Shown here piece after piece: positions 58,353 through 64,000 of a DNA stretch of 64,000 nucleotides; position 1 is the first letter of the stretch; every line of letters starts with the position of its first letter. The notes under the pieces were generated by a model that was not told where the DNA came from, did not search any database, and worked only from the letters and a program-made list of their open reading frames with translations. The stretch comes from Pseudomonadota bacterium (GTDB lineage: Bacteria > Pseudomonadota > Alphaproteobacteria > Dongiales > Dongiaceae). A program made the position numbers and the translations under genes. Location of the stretch: positions 1 through 64,000 of the forward strand of contig JACPDN010000016.1 of the NCBI GenBank assembly GCA_016183985.1, in the 5' to 3' direction.

Positions 58353-58423
58353 GGCCTGGGTCGGATCTGGGTCAGACTTGGGGCGGTCCTGCCTCGATGG
58401 CGGGGCCGCCTATCCTCCAGTCT

Positions 58424-58819
58424 CTATCTCTTTGCCATGCCGGCAATCAGCAGGCTCGCCGTTGCCTCGTTGCAGGCGAAGGGGATGTCGTAAAGGATGC
58501 TGAGGCGGATAAGCGCCTTCACATCGACATCATGGGGCAGGGCGGTCATCGGATCGATGAAGAAGATGAGTGCCTCAACCTTCTTCTCGGCGATGAGGGC
58601 GCCGATCTGTTGGTCGCCGCCGAGCGGCCCGCTTTTCAAGCGTTTGATCTTCAGGCCGGGGCAGGCAGCGCCGACGATGCCGCCGGTTGTGCCGGTCGCA
58701 AAGAGGCGATAGCGCGCCAGCAGCTTTTCATGCGCTTTCGCCCAATCGCGCATCCGGGATTTCATCTGGTCATGCGCCACGATGGCCAGGGTTGCCTCGC
58801 CCATTCTTTTTTTAATCAT
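58424..58819 (-). CDS. mgsA: Methylglyoxal synthase
   Basis: MgsA converts dihydroxyacetone phosphate to methylglyoxal and phosphate, a bypass used when glycolytic phosphate is short. The 131-residue protein has the family length. It has [10 protein letters not shown]-type strand one ([13 protein letters not shown]), LFATGTTG with the phosphate-binding loop, [16 protein letters not shown] and the catalytic Asp in [20 protein letters not shown]. The gene converges on the multicopper oxidase gene and diverges from tauD across 168 bases. It appears to be monocistronic. The leader contains TTCTCAAG and poly-T stretches but no clear control element of its own. Confidence 0.93.
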
Positions 58820-58879
58820 TTGAAATTCCTTATATTTCTTTGCTGTTCTTGAGAAAAACTTACGCTTATGACAAGAAAG

Positions 58880-58911
58880 GCTTGTTTGTCTACTAATTCA
58901 GTAGAGATTTA
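58880..58911 (+). promoter_or_regulatory. Shared 32-bp element upstream of tauD (sulfur-gene motif, copy 1)
   Basis: GCTTGTTTGTCTACTA followed by TAGAGATTTA forms a block that recurs, inverted, upstream of the sulfate-binding protein gene at 63697-63728, with 28 of 32 positions identical. Here it contains the perfect inverted repeat TCTACT-N5-AGTAGA. It ends 76 bases before the tauD start. A binding site or promoter for a sulfur-limitation regulator is inferred. Confidence 0.75.
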
Positions 58912-58987
58912 TCTTCCCTTCCCAAGAGAGGGCAGTAGAAGACTGCCCGCATCGACAGGAATTGGAAATGGCTGGCAGGAGAGTTTC

Positions 58988-59842
58988 ATGAGCAACCGCA
59001 TGGTCGCCGACCTTATCCGGATCGAACTATTGGGGCCTGCCATCGGCGCGCGCATCGAGAGCATCGATCTTGCCCGGCCGATCGATGCGGCGAGCCGCGC
59101 CAAGCTCGGCGATGCCCTCGTCACTCATAAAGTCCTGTTCTTCGAAAACCAGATCATCACACCGCAGCAGCAACGCAACTTCGCTGCCGCCTTTGGCAAG
59201 CTGCATATCCATCCCATTTACCCGCAGGTCGAGGACGCGCCGGAAATCATCATCCTCGATACCAGCACGCTGAACCTCCCCGATAACGACAATTGGCACA
59301 CCGACGTCACCTTCATCGAGACGCCGCCCTTGGGCGCCGTACTCTATGCCAAGGAATTGCCGCCCCAAGGCGGTGACACGTTGTGGGTCAATAATGAGGC
59401 GGCGTTCAACGCGCTGTCGCCGGTTTTTCGCGCCTTCCTCGAACGCCTGTCCGCGACCCATGACTTTGCCAAATCCTTCCCCGCCGAGCGCTATGCGCGG
59501 ACGCCGGCCGAAGAGAAGCAATGGCTGGCGGCGAAAGCGAAGAACCGTCCGGTCAAGCATCCCGTCATCCGCACCCATCCGGTGAGCGGGACCAAGGGTC
59601 TCTTCGTCAACGAAGGCTTCACCACGCATATCAACGAGCTCTCGGCCGGCGAAAGTCGCGTCGTACTCGACCTGCTCTTCAAGCATGTTGGCAAGCCGGA
59701 TTTCCAGGTTCGTCACCGTTGGAAGGTGGGCGACGTTGCCATGTGGGACAACCGTTCGACCCAGCATTATGCGGTGGCCGATTACCTGCCGCATCGACGC
59801 GTGATGCATCGGGCGACCATCCTCGGCGATCGTCCGTTCTGA
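58988..59842 (+). CDS. tauD: TauD/TfdA-family Fe(II)/2-oxoglutarate dioxygenase
   Basis: The ATG at 58988 with CAGGAGAG upstream gives 284 residues; the open frame before it covers the regulatory region. The 2-His-1-carboxylate iron site is His104 and Asp106 in NWHTDVTF and His260 in TQHYAVADYLP. The 2-oxoglutarate-binding Arg lies in HRRVMHRATI. TauD releases sulfite from taurine, and close relatives act on alkyl sulfates or other sulfonates. No taurine ABC genes are adjacent. The shared upstream element with a sulfate-binding gene supports a sulfur-scavenging role. A flavoprotein gene follows after six bases. Confidence 0.88.
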   Translation: MSNRMVADLIRIELLGPAIGARIESIDLARPIDAASRAKLGDALVTHKVLFFENQIITPQQQRNFAAAFGKLHIHPIYPQVEDAPEIIILDTSTLNLPDNDNWHTDVTFIETPPLGAVLYAKELPPQGGDTLWVNNEAAFNALSPVFRAFLERLSATHDFAKSFPAERYARTPAEEKQWLAAKAKNRPVKHPVIRTHPVSGTKGLFVNEGFTTHINELSAGESRVVLDLLFKHVGKPDFQVRHRWKVGDVAMWDNRSTQHYAVADYLPHRRVMHRATILGDRPF

Positions 59843-59848
59843 CCTGCC

Positions 59849-61222
59849 ATGGCTGCCATCGGTGACCAGGGCGGTCGCCGCATCGCCATCATCGGGGCGG
59901 GCTTCAGCGGTTCGCTGCTGGCCCTGCACCTGTTGCGCCGATGCCGGCCCGAGGACCGCATTTATCTGGTCGAGCGCAATCAGAATTTCGGCCGCGGCCT
60001 CGCTTATGCGACCGGCAATCCCAATCATTTGCTGAATGTGCGCGCCGGGAATATGAGTGCGTTCCCCGACGAACCCGATCATTTCGTCCACTGGCTGCAG
60101 GCCTTGCCGGCCGAGCAACGGGCCGAGATCGGCGAGGCCGGGGCCTCAACCTTCGTGCCGCGCCGTGTCTACGGCAATTACATCCAGAACCTTCTGGGCG
60201 ACAGGATCTGGCGGGAAGGACAGAGCCGCAACCTCTTCCTGCTCACCGATGAAGCTGTGGCACTTCACCGCGATGCCGGCGGGCTATCGCTCGAGCTTGC
60301 CGTGGGGCGCCGCTATTCCATCGATCATGCCGCGCTCGCTGTGGGCAATTTCCCGCCCACCGCCACAGCATCCGGCTATTTCGGCGATCCCTGGAATCCC
60401 GGCTGCCTCGAAAATCTCGCGCCCGATGCGCCGGTGCTCATCCTGGGCACCGGTCTCACCTTCATCGACACGATTCTGTCGCTGCTGGATCGCGATCATA
60501 CCGGCAAGATCCATGCGCTCTCGCGCCGTGGCCTGCTGCCACGTGTGCATGCGGCTGTATCGGCACCGTGGAAATACGAAGCACCGCCTTCGGGCCAAAA
60601 CCTCTTGAAACTGCTGCGGGAGGTCCGCGCCATTGCCCGTACTACTGAAGAGACCGGTGCTGGCTGGCGTGCGGCCATCGATGGATTGCGGCCGCATACC
60701 CAGCGGCTATGGCAGGAAATGTCGCTCGGTGAACGTGCGCGCTTCCTGCGCCATTTGCGCCCCTGGTGGGATGTGCATCGCCATCGTGCGGCCCCCCAGG
60801 TCATGGCGCGGGTCGAGGCAGCCATCGCCGCCGGCCAGGTCGAAATCATCAAGGGCCGCATCGGTGAGACCACGCGCCTTGATGAAGCCAGCCTGGTCCA
60901 TATCAATCTGCGCGGCGACAGCGGCATCCGTGAACTGGTCGTCGACCGCGTCGTCGACTGCTCCGGCCCGCGCTCCGATGCGACGCGCCTCGATCAGAAA
61001 CTCATGCGACATTTACTTGAGACCGGACAGGTACGGCCGGACCCCTTGCGCCTCGGCATCGATGTCGACCGGCAAGGCCAAGTCATCGATGCCGAGGGTA
61101 AAGTGGCGCCTGATCTCCACGCCATCGGCCCCATCACCAAGGGAACCTTCTGGGAGATCATTGCGGTGCCGGATCTGCGGCTGGCCTGCGCCAACCTGGC
61201 CGCCCGGCTGCTGCGCTCGTGA
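59849..61222 (+). CDS. FAD/NAD(P)-binding flavoprotein (YdhS-like)
   Basis: The 457-residue protein starts with RRIAIIGAGFSGSLLALHLL, a dinucleotide-binding motif. It continues with the family features FGRGLAYATGNPNHLLNVRA, a second Rossmann segment PVLILGTGLTFIDTILSLL near residue 198, and a C-terminal IGPITKGTFWEIIAVPDLR. This matches the FAD/NAD(P)-binding YdhS-like family, whose biochemical role is largely unknown. It lies six bases after tauD on the same strand and so should share its control. A part in organosulfur metabolism, such as an oxygenase or sulfite-related redox step, is only inference. Confidence 0.82.
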   Translation: MAAIGDQGGRRIAIIGAGFSGSLLALHLLRRCRPEDRIYLVERNQNFGRGLAYATGNPNHLLNVRAGNMSAFPDEPDHFVHWLQALPAEQRAEIGEAGASTFVPRRVYGNYIQNLLGDRIWREGQSRNLFLLTDEAVALHRDAGGLSLELAVGRRYSIDHAALAVGNFPPTATASGYFGDPWNPGCLENLAPDAPVLILGTGLTFIDTILSLLDRDHTGKIHALSRRGLLPRVHAAVSAPWKYEAPPSGQNLLKLLREVRAIARTTEETGAGWRAAIDGLRPHTQRLWQEMSLGERARFLRHLRPWWDVHRHRAAPQVMARVEAAIAAGQVEIIKGRIGETTRLDEASLVHINLRGDSGIRELVVDRVVDCSGPRSDATRLDQKLMRHLLETGQVRPDPLRLGIDVDRQGQVIDAEGKVAPDLHAIGPITKGTFWEIIAVPDLRLACANLAARLLRS

Positions 61223-61234
61223 CCCACGGAGCAG

Positions 61235-61642
61235 CTATTTATCTTCCATCACGAGCTTCTTATCGTCGGTATCGACCACAAAGACGGCCAGCATACGCGA
61301 TGGCTCGGTATCGCTGGCATTGGCGCTGACGCCGTGATGATCACCCGGCATTTCGACGAAGTTTTCGCCGGCCCGATAGATCTTTTCCGGTTCGTCATTG
61401 ATCTTCATCCGGACCGCACCCTCAAGGACCGTTGCATAGATGAAGGCCGAATCCGGATGGGTATGCGATGGCGACGAGCCGCCCGGACCGTATTCGACCA
61501 GCACGCCGCGCAGACTCTTGCCGGGCGCATTGGGCAGCACATGATCGAAAACCAAAGTGACCTTGCGGTCTTCGCCATGCGCCACGCCGATCGACACGGC
61601 ACAGAGAGCGATAGCGGCGGTGGTCAGATATTTGGCAAGCAT
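61235..61642 (-). CDS. Exported small cupin protein
   Basis: I choose the ATG at 61642 because AGGAGGG lies seven bases upstream; an ATG two codons earlier would sit directly on that ribosome site. The 135-residue protein has a signal peptide (LAKYLTTAAIALCAVSIGVA) and a single cupin domain: YGPGGSSPSHTHPDSAFIYATVLEG holds the HxH and downstream metal ligands, and GENFVEMPGDHHGVSANAS the second motif. The substrate is unknown. The gene lies 46 bases downstream of the NmrA-like gene on the same strand and may be co-transcribed. It converges with the YdhS-like gene 12 bases away. Confidence 0.83.
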   Translation of the reverse strand: MLAKYLTTAAIALCAVSIGVAHGEDRKVTLVFDHVLPNAPGKSLRGVLVEYGPGGSSPSHTHPDSAFIYATVLEGAVRMKINDEPEKIYRAGENFVEMPGDHHGVSANASDTEPSRMLAVFVVDTDDKKLVMEDK

Positions 61643-61688
61643 GGACATCCCTCCTTTGGTGGCGTGTTGGCGTGGATAGTCCCTGGGC

Positions 61689-62453
61689 TCACGAAGCTTT
61701 GGCTTGCGGAACCGAGTGCGCGAGCCAGTCGGTGAATCGAATCTTCCCGATGCGCGCGCCGTCGCCCGGAGTAAGCGACTGATCGTCCAATATCGAGCCA
61801 AAATAGCGGGCGTTGACGTCGGAAACGACGTGGCGCGAATCCTTCCTGGCGGCCAGCAAGCGCCGAACAGATTCATCGAGGCCGATCTTCTCCGGACCGG
61901 CCACTTCGACGATGCCGTTCACCGGCGCGTCCAGGGCCACGTCGACCAGGGCGGCCACGACGTCGTCCGAGGCGAGCGGCTGGAATAATGCCGGCGACAG
62001 GCGGATCGTCTGGCCGTCAGCGGCAGTTTCACCGATTGCGCCGACGAATTCGAAGAACTGCGTGGCGCGCAGGATTGTGTAGGGCGTCTTCCCGGCCCTG
62101 ATCAATGTCTCCTGCGCGAGTTTGGCGCGGAGATAGCCGTTATCGGCGAGACGATCGGTGCCGACCACCGAAAGTGCCACGTGGTGCTTCACACCAGCCG
62201 CCGCTTCGGCAGCCATCAGATTGCGGCCCGATTTCTCGAAGAATTCCATCACCGCCTTCTCCTCAAAGGAGGGCGAATTCACCACGTCGATGACGATGTC
62301 GGCGCCGCCAAGTGCGGCAGCCAGACCTTCGCCGGTGACGGCGTTGACGCCGGAACTGGGCGATGCCGCATTGACGTCATGGCCGAGGGACCGCAGCTTG
62401 CTCACAACCTTGGCGCCGATAAGGCCACTGCCACCGAGAACGACGATCTTCAT
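61689..62453 (-). CDS. NmrA/atypical short-chain dehydrogenase-like NAD(P)-binding protein
   Basis: The ATG at 62453 (AGGAG upstream) gives 254 residues. It opens with MKIVVLGGSGLIGAKVVSKL, an NAD(P)-binding loop, followed by GADIVIDVVNSPSFEEKAV, GVKHHVALSVVGTDRLADNGYLRAK and TPYTILRATQFFEF, the pattern of atypical NmrA-type SDRs. The usual Tyr-x3-Lys pair appears as GYLRAKLAQE, so catalysis is possible. Substrate and role are unknown; relatives act as NAD(P)H sensors or quinone/isoflavone reductases. It lies between the sulfate-binding gene (separated by a terminator) and the cupin gene. Confidence 0.82.
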   Translation of the reverse strand: MKIVVLGGSGLIGAKVVSKLRSLGHDVNAASPSSGVNAVTGEGLAAALGGADIVIDVVNSPSFEEKAVMEFFEKSGRNLMAAEAAAGVKHHVALSVVGTDRLADNGYLRAKLAQETLIRAGKTPYTILRATQFFEFVGAIGETAADGQTIRLSPALFQPLASDDVVAALVDVALDAPVNGIVEVAGPEKIGLDESVRRLLAARKDSRHVVSDVNARYFGSILDDQSLTPGDGARIGKIRFTDWLAHSVPQAKAS

Positions 62454-62547
62454 GTCCTTAACTCCTCTGTTGTCCGGATGCGCCTGGGGCTCCAGGAGCA
62501 GACGACCGAGCTTTGGTCGGCGTGACATCGTGCGCCGAAAAAAAAGA

Positions 62548-62573
62548 AAACGGGGCCTGCAAAAGCCCCGTTT
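62548..62573 (-). terminator. Rho-independent terminator after the sulfate-binding protein gene
   Basis: The stem AAACGGGGC / GCCCCGTTT (62548-62556 with 62565-62573) encloses an eight-base loop. Read on the minus strand it is followed by a long T-rich tract (TTTTCTTTTTTTT-like). It begins 26 bases after the stop of the sulfate-binding protein gene, making that gene monocistronic. Confidence 0.9.
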
Positions 62574-62599
62574 CCGTTGTTAACAGAGGTTGATAAGGA

Positions 62600-63622
62600 T
62601 CAGTTCGCCGGTTGATAGATCTGGTCGAAGGTTCCGCCATCGCCGAAATGCTCCGGCTGTGCCTTGGCCCAGCCACCGAATGTGTCATCGATGGTGAGTA
62701 GATTGACCTTGGGGAAGTCCTTCTCATGCGCGGCTGCAACCGTGGGATCGGTTGGGCGATAGAAGTTCTCCGCAGCGATCTCCTGGCCTTCCGGCGTGTA
62801 GAGATAGTTGAGATAGGCCTCGGCCGCTTTCCGCGTGCCATGCTTATCGGCGACCTTGTCGACCACGGCGACCGGCGGCTCGGCGAGGATGCTGATGCTG
62901 GGGACGACGATGTCGAACTGGTCCGGGCCCAATTCCTTCACGGCGAGAAAGGCTTCGTTCTCCCAGGCAAGGAGTACGTCGCCGATGCCGCGCTGGACGA
63001 AGGTGGTGGTGGCACCGCGGGCGCCGGAATCGAGCACCGGCACGTGCTTGTAGAGATCCGTCACGAAGGCCTTCGCCGTATCTGCCGAACCGCCGGGCTG
63101 CTTCAGTGCCCAGCCCCAGGCGGCGAGATAGTTCCAGCGCGCACCGCCCGAGGTCTTTGGGTTCGGCGTGATCACTTCGACGCCTTCTTTCGTCAGGTCA
63201 CCCCAATCCTTGATGCCTTTGGGGTTGCCCTTGCGCACCAGGAACACGATGGTCGAGGTGTAGGGCGAGGAGTTGTGTGGCAGGCGGGCCTGCCAATCCT
63301 TGGGCAGCAAACCGCCCTTCGCAGAGATCTCATCGATGTCATAAGCGAGGGCGAGGGTCACGACATCCGCCTCGAGCCCGTCGATCACGGCGCGGGCCTG
63401 TTTACCGGAACCGCCGTGGGAGGCTTCGATGGAGAGGTCTTCGCCCGTCTCCTTCTTCCAATGCGCGGCGAAGGCCGTGTTGAATTCCTTATAGAGCTCG
63501 CGCGTCGGGTCATAGGACACGTTGAGCAGCTGGGTTTCCGCCTGGGCAAGGCCCGGCAAGGCGGCCGCAAAAAGCGTCGCCAGTACGGCGGCAACTGACA
63601 GAGAACGTCTCGAAATCAACAT
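62600..63622 (-). CDS. Sulfate ABC transporter substrate-binding protein
   Basis: The 340-residue protein has a signal peptide (residues about 1-28, ending AQA-E) and is of the Sbp/CysP family, which captures sulfate or thiosulfate in the periplasm. Family motifs are [40 protein letters not shown] near residue 68, [20 protein letters not shown] near 150, and [14 protein letters not shown] near 218. The gene stands alone between a terminator and a divergent murJ, without cysT, cysW or cysA, so its partner subunits must lie elsewhere. The 32-bp element upstream of tauD is repeated 75 bases upstream of this start. Confidence 0.94.
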
Positions 63623-63696
63623 CTTAGCCTCCTGGAGCGCGACTTGGCCCGCGCCGGTTTCTATCCCACCAGACGGGTGTCTGGTTGGTAGAAATC

Positions 63697-63728
63697 TAAA
63701 TCTCTATCGACATAGTAGACAAACAAGC
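63697..63728 (-). promoter_or_regulatory. Shared 32-bp element upstream of the sulfate-binding gene (sulfur-gene motif, copy 2)
   Basis: Read on the minus strand it is GCTTGTTTGTCTACTA, then TGTCGA, then TAGAGATTTA, identical to the tauD copy at 28 of 32 positions and differing only in the centre. It ends 74 bases before the start codon, almost the same distance as at tauD. This supports one shared regulator or promoter type. Confidence 0.75.
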
Positions 63729-63871
63729 TTCACTTGAAAAGGCCACAAGTTTTTCTTAAGGCGGCCACGGTATCCGCGCAGGCTTAAAAGCCGCGCGGGT
63801 GACCGCTTCTATGCTAAACACCTCACAAAGCTGGCGATTCCAGATCCCGTTCCGAAAGTCCTGCCGTCCTC

Positions 63872-64000
63872 ATGTTTTCTTTGCGCTCCTTCGCCACCGT
63901 CGGCGGCATGACCTTGATGAGCCGAATCTTGGGCTTCGTGCGCGAGGTGATGATCGCCCAGATCTTCGGCACCGGCCCCATCGCCGACGCCTTCATCGTC
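63872..64000 (+). CDS. murJ: Lipid II flippase MurJ, 5' end only
   Basis: Forty-three codons are present before the window ends. They read MFSLRSFATVGGMTLMSRIL then GFVREVMIAQIFGTGPIADA, the highly conserved N-terminus of MurJ/MviN, which flips the peptidoglycan precursor lipid II across the inner membrane. The SRxLGFxRE motif and the following GxGPxADAF are diagnostic. The gene is truncated only by the window edge. It diverges from the sulfate-binding protein gene; the 249-base gap holds the sulfur element near 63700 and otherwise no visible gene. Confidence 0.93.
   Translation, partial: MFSLRSFATVGGMTLMSRILGFVREVMIAQIFGTGPIADAFIV

Follow-up and report, generated by a model that had tools for sequence, protein, structure and literature searches.

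Why do nearly identical 32-bp elements stand before two different genes, tauD and the gene for a sulfate-binding protein (sbp), in a stretch of DNA from an alphaproteobacterium of the family Dongiaceae? The stretch, hereafter the window, comprises 64,000 nucleotides (assembly GCA_016183985.1, contig JACPDN010000016.1, positions 1 to 64,000 of the forward strand). An initial annotation, made from the letters alone, proposed that the element is the site of a sulfur-limitation regulator. On recheck, the positions, the strands and the identity at 28 of 32 bases between 58880-58911 (+) and 63697-63728 (-) proved exact, with all four mismatches in the centre, and the reported spacing of about 75 bases is true for both copies: the sbp ATG (63622, minus strand) lies 74 bases away and the likely tauD ATG (58988) lies 76 bases away, an alternative, longer in-frame tauD start lying at 58868. 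Both downstream genes do serve sulfur acquisition, as had been claimed, and their products score well above the NCBIfam cut-offs (433.8 bits against 313 for taurine dioxygenase PRK09553, and 518.4 bits against 288 for the sulfate-binding protein model). The proposed sulfur-limitation site is itself supported, given that such sites cluster before sulfur genes, and the likely regulator belongs to the Rrf2 family. We predict, with a probability of roughly 0.8, that an Rrf2-family repressor of a sulfur-limitation regulon uses the dyad within the element as its operator.

The distribution of the sites is the main evidence for this prediction. Within the window, a 25-base core with up to 3 mismatches was matched twice, versus no match in 100 dinucleotide shuffles, and the 32-mer pattern, also with up to 3 mismatches, had only two matches in the whole genome (G000; 4,647,407 bases in 16 contigs), its reversed control having none. 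The motif scan of the genome and its relatives that the initial annotation had suggested as a check was run on 17 genomes of the same order (one family, seven genera). All 16 matches of the core pattern precede sulfur or regulator genes, namely sbp in four cases, tauD in four, a TauA-like gene in one (G012, by eye), rrf2 in six and a LysR-type gene in one, and the reversed control gave 2 matches. A 22-base core with 3 mismatches was dropped as too loose (9 matches in the window's genome versus 10 for the reversed control); among its seven 3-mismatch matches, only the Rrf2 and LysR ones recurred in later searches.

The dyad also stands on contig C6 of the window's genome, before the gene (rrf2) of an Rrf2-type protein of 148 residues; this gene heads the series rrf2-cysT-cysW-cysA-tauE, inferred to be one operon. 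No binding-protein gene was seen in this operon on contig C6, and the Sbp of the window fits as the obvious partner of the cysTWA sulfate transporter; a second, more distant sbp-like gene (G000:C13:1377460, 51% identical) has no such site in its 230 upstream bases. Elsewhere in the family, rrf2 lies directly before an sbp in all eight genomes of other genera that have rrf2 (G001 and G008-G014), and in G015 and G016 no rrf2 (E<=1e-20), no sbp (E<=1e-60) and no site were found. A weight matrix built from 13 sbp and tau sites, with no rrf2 site included, was scanned over the 200 bases before rrf2 and over 200 Markov shuffles. In 13 of the 14 family genomes scored, at most 5 of the 200 shuffles were as good, and the site lies 1-12 bases from the start codon; the exception is L162 (9/200 shuffles, different position), and L167 is outside the 14. 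By eye, the regions between rrf2 and sbp in G012, G010, G009 and G001 (L144, L147, L151 and L143) hold more dyad-like sequences, for example ACTACTAAATTGATAGATATA, with best-core scores of 9-10/13, and these are perhaps internal operators.

Two profiles, with E-values that are rough, gave a similar distribution across the 17 genomes. The first (R1), made from the same 13 sbp and tau sites, had 14 matches at E<=0.0011, all at sbp or tau genes and nearly all of them training sites; among the six weaker rows (E 0.04-0.7), two are LysR promoters and one is an rrf2 promoter, one repeats a site on the opposite strand, and two are non-sulfur places in G007. The second (R2), made from 22 sites including those of rrf2, gave 33 rows at E<=0.3 with at most 150 candidates per genome scored, corresponding to 31 distinct sites: seven at tau genes, seven at sbp, eight at rrf2, five at LysR genes, two at rhodanese-like genes and two at GST-like genes. 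Nine of these 31 sites (LysR, rhodanese-like and GST-like) lie outside the training groups, and none is listed outside the six gene groups, where about 5 chance matches would be expected were the E-values exact. None of the six sites found in the window's own genome, with 150 of 241 candidates scored, precedes a further cys or ssu gene, the promoters of such genes not having been checked individually. The rhodanese-like gene (PF00581, 22.5 bits, cut-off 22.2) lies within L236:6038-9501 (G000:C2), a stretch that also carries a choline-sulfatase gene (720 bits, cut-off 433) and a GcvA-like LysR gene, and a weak Rrf2-type site lies between the last of these and the rhodanese-like gene; a choline-sulfate branch of the regulon is possible at this locus. 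Before the GST-like gene, a weak Rrf2-type site lies at L235:4456 (G000:C6:51457), and the same is true in G004.

The regulator belongs to the Rrf2 family (PF02082, 138.7 bits, cut-off 30; TIGR00738, 127.3 bits, cut-off 73.3), and it falls far below the equivalog cut-offs of the known members: 81.2 of 195 bits for CymR (NF047409), 81 of 207.6 for IscR, 64 of 193 for RirA and 62 of 182 for NsrR. The motif C91-x8-C100-x2-C103-x5-C109 is invariant in 28/28 aligned orthologs, taken from 37 loci after nine had been left out for a start that did not fit the search expression. These four cysteines suggest a plausible iron-sulfur (Fe-S) cluster or a thiol sensor. The geometry of the dyad presumably resembles the type 2 layout of IscR, and conserved cysteines in the cluster region are a feature shared with IscR, RirA, NsrR and RisR, although the putative targets here are sulfate and sulfonate genes and the scores for IscR, RirA and NsrR are below cut-off. 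RisR likely uses C92, C102 and C108 for its cluster, according to the available text of PMC9973013; C103-x5-C109 has the same last spacing, and the regulator described here has C91 and an extra C100. The cysteine-metabolism repressor CymR of Bacillus subtilis and Staphylococcus aureus is also an Rrf2 protein with predicted sites before sulfur-acquisition genes, and the B. subtilis protein (2y75) aligns over residues 2-134 at 1.3e-15. Unlike the regulator discussed here, however, B. subtilis CymR has an 11-residue gap spanning Cys91-Cys103, and in our case the regulator gene heads a sulfate-transport operon and bears its own site. CymR is further described as forming complexes with CysK (PMC2869319, in part). 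Another Rrf2 protein tied to sulfur, predicted to be CymR, has been proposed as a sulfur regulator in Rhodococcus qingshengii IGTS8 (PMC8557817); the host is a Rhodococcus, no sulfur metabolism proteins are encoded in the immediate neighbourhood of that gene, and the available portion of the paper describes no operator.

Is the association between this type of regulator and the dyad confined to one family? A class-level search of 240 genomes yielded an Rrf2 match (E<=1e-30) in 23 of them, which gave 22 loci outside the genus. With flanks of 1.5 kb, these loci contain an sbp in seven cases, a CysA homolog in one and an FAD protein in one, the last (L125) being a homolog of the FAD/NAD(P)-binding protein encoded next to tauD. 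The 22 loci (73.8 kb) contain five copies of the strict dyad YCTAY-n7-RTAGR, where 0.075 are expected and at most 1 was seen in 40 Markov shuffles, and three of the five lie at the start of an sbp, rrf2 or FAD gene (L121, L122 and L125). At class-level rrf2 genes, the relaxed dyad did better than the weight matrix of the family.

A similar association was found among named sbp loci, of which the best 80 of 579 were used. In ten of the 80, the extracted stretch includes an Rrf2 homolog (E<=1e-8); these are the loci of Geotalea sp. SG265, Geomonas limicola, Geomonas sp. Red32, a Geobacteraceae bacterium, Mesorhizobium sp. J18, Prosthecomicrobium pneumaticum, Rhizobiales bacterium Y(2018), an Opitutaceae bacterium, a Brevibacillus and a Neobacillus. 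The strict dyad is present in 4 of these 10 loci versus 2 of the 70 without an Rrf2 homolog (Fisher p 0.0017), and in the four (Geotalea, Geomonas limicola, Mesorhizobium and Rhizobiales Y) its place is either immediately upstream of rrf2 or in the interval from rrf2 to sbp. All 80 loci together have 7 dyads, where the expectation is 2.1 and none of 20 shuffles had more than 5. One of these genera, Geomonas, is placed in the phylum Thermodesulfobacteriota. In Geomonas limicola, one more strict dyad, CCTATCGATTAGATAGA (L041:11409), stands before an unannotated lipoprotein-like gene, at a distance of about 3.4 kb from the start of sbp. The proteins of the two Bacillota carry another motif, with three cysteines, and their genes, near sbp and with no strict dyad, are at L046:7109-7501 (Brevibacillus) and L094:2612-3022 (Neobacillus); the link between Rrf2 and sulfate in the Bacillota is perhaps independent.

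The dyad is only part of what the two promoters share. When the sbp and tau promoters of one genome were set against each other, in G000, G003, G004 and G007, 20-25 of 27 bases were identical in the site and 21-27 of 40 immediately upstream of it, while the outer flanks are as dissimilar as unrelated DNA (16-22/79 and 16-27/90). Since the site and the 40 upstream bases are alike and the outer flanks are not, the conserved unit is bounded on both sides and measures about 67 bp, which is larger than the 32 bp originally described. Its downstream part is the dyad YCTAY-n7-RTAGR. Its upstream part, in an ungapped alignment of 14 sbp and tau promoters on the dyad, consists of two half-boxes, RAG-n5-CTY, which are 21-22 bp apart, end where the dyad region begins and keep a near-constant distance to the operator. 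Half-box 1 is clear in 12/14 promoters, half-box 2 in 12/14 and both in 10/14, counts that have no shuffle control and from which the sbp promoter of G002, where the half-boxes were not seen, had been dropped. In the window, the features are arranged as follows.

58851..58862, plus strand: half-box 1 of tauD, GAGAAAAACTTA, 22 bp upstream of half-box 2 (promoter alignment)
58873..58884, plus strand: half-box 2 of tauD, AAGAAAGGCTTG, predicted activator contact (promoter alignment)
58880..58911, plus strand: 32-bp element before tauD, made up of the end of half-box 2 and the dyad (sequence comparison, genome search)
58885..58911, plus strand: predicted Rrf2 operator of tauD, 27-mer, with the perfect dyad TCTACT-n5-AGTAGA (top own-genome match of both profiles; kept in same-genus genomes)
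58988..59842, plus strand: tauD, taurine dioxygenase family (NCBIfam)
59849..61222, plus strand: FAD/NAD(P)-binding protein gene, 6 bases past tauD, probable second gene of the operon
62600..63622, minus strand: sbp, periplasmic sulfate-binding protein (NCBIfam)
63697..63723, minus strand: predicted Rrf2 operator of sbp, 27-mer (core pattern, profiles, promoter alignment)
63697..63728, minus strand: 32-bp element before sbp (sequence comparison, genome search)
63724..63735, minus strand: half-box 2 of sbp, AAGTGAAGCTTG (promoter alignment)
63746..63757, minus strand: half-box 1 of sbp, AAGAAAAACTTG (promoter alignment)

A candidate for the protein that binds the half-boxes is a LysR-type regulator of the GcvA subfamily (317.8 bits, cut-off 288). 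By eye, a dyad-like site lies upstream of its gene in all 12 closest orthologs inspected, from nine genomes; three of these sites are degenerate, all at second tandem copies. In G009, G011, G013 and G014, the gene is divergent from sbp or tauD. The half-box and the LysR gene occur together in nine genomes, and the half-box occurs alone in G003 (Fisher p 0.0004 with G013 and G014 counted as box-bearing, 0.015 without them); these p-values are generous, given the relatedness of the genomes and the lack of any dyad-bearing sbp or tau promoter in most of the seven without a box. Because of the dyad-like site upstream of the LysR gene and this co-occurrence, we propose that the LysR protein may be an activator that is itself kept in check by Rrf2. 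We are less sure of this part of the model and would give it about an even chance. No consensus sigma-70 promoter was found at tauD or sbp, as would be expected if an activator is needed there, and the rrf2 promoter reads TTGACA-16-TATTCT, with the dyad on the -10 element. In the window's genome, the LysR-type gene forms a tandem pair of paralogs with a dyad-like site before each (L109:8695-11338, on G000:C13), and this pair is kept in G004 and G007.

The shared element would thus be a composite promoter with the Rrf2 operator as its downstream half. When sulfur is plentiful, an Rrf2 dimer would occupy and block the core promoters of sbp, of tauD and the FAD gene, of the LysR gene and of rrf2-cysTWA, the last being its own promoter, where the dyad overlaps the -10 element and autoregulation is predicted; when sulfur is short, it would release them. 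The LysR-type regulator, being under an Rrf2 operator, would then probably bind the upstream half-boxes and add a second, activating layer at sbp and tauD. A broader proposal is that an Rrf2 subfamily spanning phyla, with members near sbp in Rhizobiales-type Alphaproteobacteria and in Geobacterales, senses sulfur through an Fe-S cluster or the four-cysteine motif and acts from YCTAY-n7-RTAGR as a repressor of sulfate and sulfonate uptake, and that in the present family it also holds down a LysR activator of the same promoters, which would make a coherent feed-forward loop in place of CysB. We advance this proposal only tentatively, as possible but rather doubtful.

Could the dyad instead be read by the LysR-type protein, with rrf2 merely one of its targets? 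The dyad fits the T-N11-A rule of LysR sites by inspection, since the tauD copy can be written CTA-n9-TAG, and the form CTATA-n9-TATAG that phylogenetic footprinting gives for LysR sites in the available part of PMC5002191 counts in the same direction, as does the fact that the LysR gene bears the site and faces sbp or tauD in the four genomes mentioned. Nevertheless, the site persists before rrf2 in genomes where no close LysR ortholog was found (G002, G003, G006 and G008), and it stands beside Rrf2 and sbp genes in the Geotalea, Geomonas and Mesorhizobium loci; indeed, no homolog of this LysR protein (E<=1e-8) was found in the extracted stretches of any of the 80 named loci. Within the genus, moreover, the dyad lies 5-7 bases before the rrf2 start codon, on the -10 element, which is a repressor's position, and a separate pair of half-boxes is available to the LysR protein. 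We prefer Rrf2 as the reader of the dyad and consider a LysR reader unlikely, since the site accompanies rrf2 in genomes that lack a close ortholog of this LysR, occupies a repressor-like place at rrf2 and lies in loci whose extracted stretches contain no such LysR gene. Control of the CysB or Cbl type, an option that the initial annotation had left open, would suit the target genes, as the enterobacterial regulon of these LysR-type proteins includes sbp, cysTWA and tauD. The E. coli CysB protein, however, had no match at E<=1e-30 in any of the 17 genomes (53 candidate stretches were scored in the window's own genome, and the search had no positive control), so that the likeness ends with the targets: the predicted master here is a repressor of another family. 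This option is not supported, and we regard it as very improbable.

Explanations that do not involve a DNA-binding regulator fare no better. Two near-identical copies 4.8 kb apart could reflect a dispersed repeat, a mobile-element remnant or a recent promoter duplication, and a dispersed repeat was what the initial annotation had named as evidence against its proposal. There are, however, only two copies genome-wide, with unrelated flanks, which excludes the dispersed repeat; both copies are kept in G003, G004 and G007, and sbp or tau copies occur in further genera. The copy count and the comparison of flanks led us to set this family of explanations aside as having a negligible probability. 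An RNA leader element or riboswitch acting after the start of transcription would agree with a dyad-containing element upstream of start codons, but at rrf2 the site overlaps the predicted -10 element and would therefore not be transcribed whole. An Rfam search of 58400-64000 at E<=1 gave just two matches, to unrelated families, with E-values of 0.54 (overlapping the sbp copy) and 0.88 and with scores of 23.9 and 21.2 against gathering scores of 65 and 42.5. With matches so far under these scores, the RNA element was also set aside and is hardly credible.

Several observations nonetheless weigh against Rrf2 control as we propose it. Two of the weak R1 matches are not at sulfur genes: the one at G007:C25 stands, by eye, in front of a dehydrogenase-like gene, and that at G007:C38 lies within a gene. 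Furthermore, 22 of the 31 R2 sites lie in training groups and the E-values are rough; 5 of the 17 genomes have no R2 site at E<=0.3, including G001, G008 and G010, which carry rrf2; and the rhodanese-like and GST-like sites are weak (E 0.10-0.23) and present only in G000 and its near sister G004. Outside the family, its matrix mostly fails before rrf2, with only 3 of 15 class-level loci having at most 3/200 shuffles as good, and the strict dyad is missing from 6 of the 10 named loci with Rrf2 and sbp. The agreement of the dyad with the T-N11-A rule belongs here as well. As for the activating layer, G003 bears half-boxes and operator yet has no close LysR ortholog, and half-box 1 overlaps the LysR start codon in G009 and G011 and is degraded in G013 and G014.

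Control of sulfur metabolism by an Rrf2 protein is already known from CymR (PMC5015018, as far as its available text goes). What may be new here is a four-cysteine, sbp-linked proteobacterial branch of Rrf2 with the operator YCTAY-n7-RTAGR. Among the papers listed, we recognised none that describes this operator together with an Rrf2 protein controlling sulfate uptake in Proteobacteria, but RegPrecise and most subscription journals were outside the search, so this proves little; the term Rrf2 is absent from the available portion of a 2004 regulon paper on metal-reducing delta-proteobacteria (PMC545781). Little published work came to light on the way in which bacteria lacking CysB or CymR time the import of sulfate and the opening of sulfonates, and the element may mark a little-known mode of sensing sulfur shortage. 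Should an Fe-S cluster be bound by the cysteines, the cell would gauge its sulfur supply by its ability to build such clusters. The regulator family, the operator and the list of targets make the question directly testable, in lineages as distant as Mesorhizobium and Geomonas.

Two further observations concern the surroundings of the promoters in the window. The sbp leader contains, by eye, an inverted repeat, ACCAGAC-ACCC-GTCTGGT, at 63668-63685 on the minus strand, which is mostly kept in G004, and a different one (GCCAGCAC...GTGCTGGC) occupies a similar place in G007. On the other side, mgsA (methylglyoxal synthase; 58424-58819, minus strand) is divergent from tauD, with half-box 1 about 30 bases before its start, and its regulation may be shared with that of tauD.

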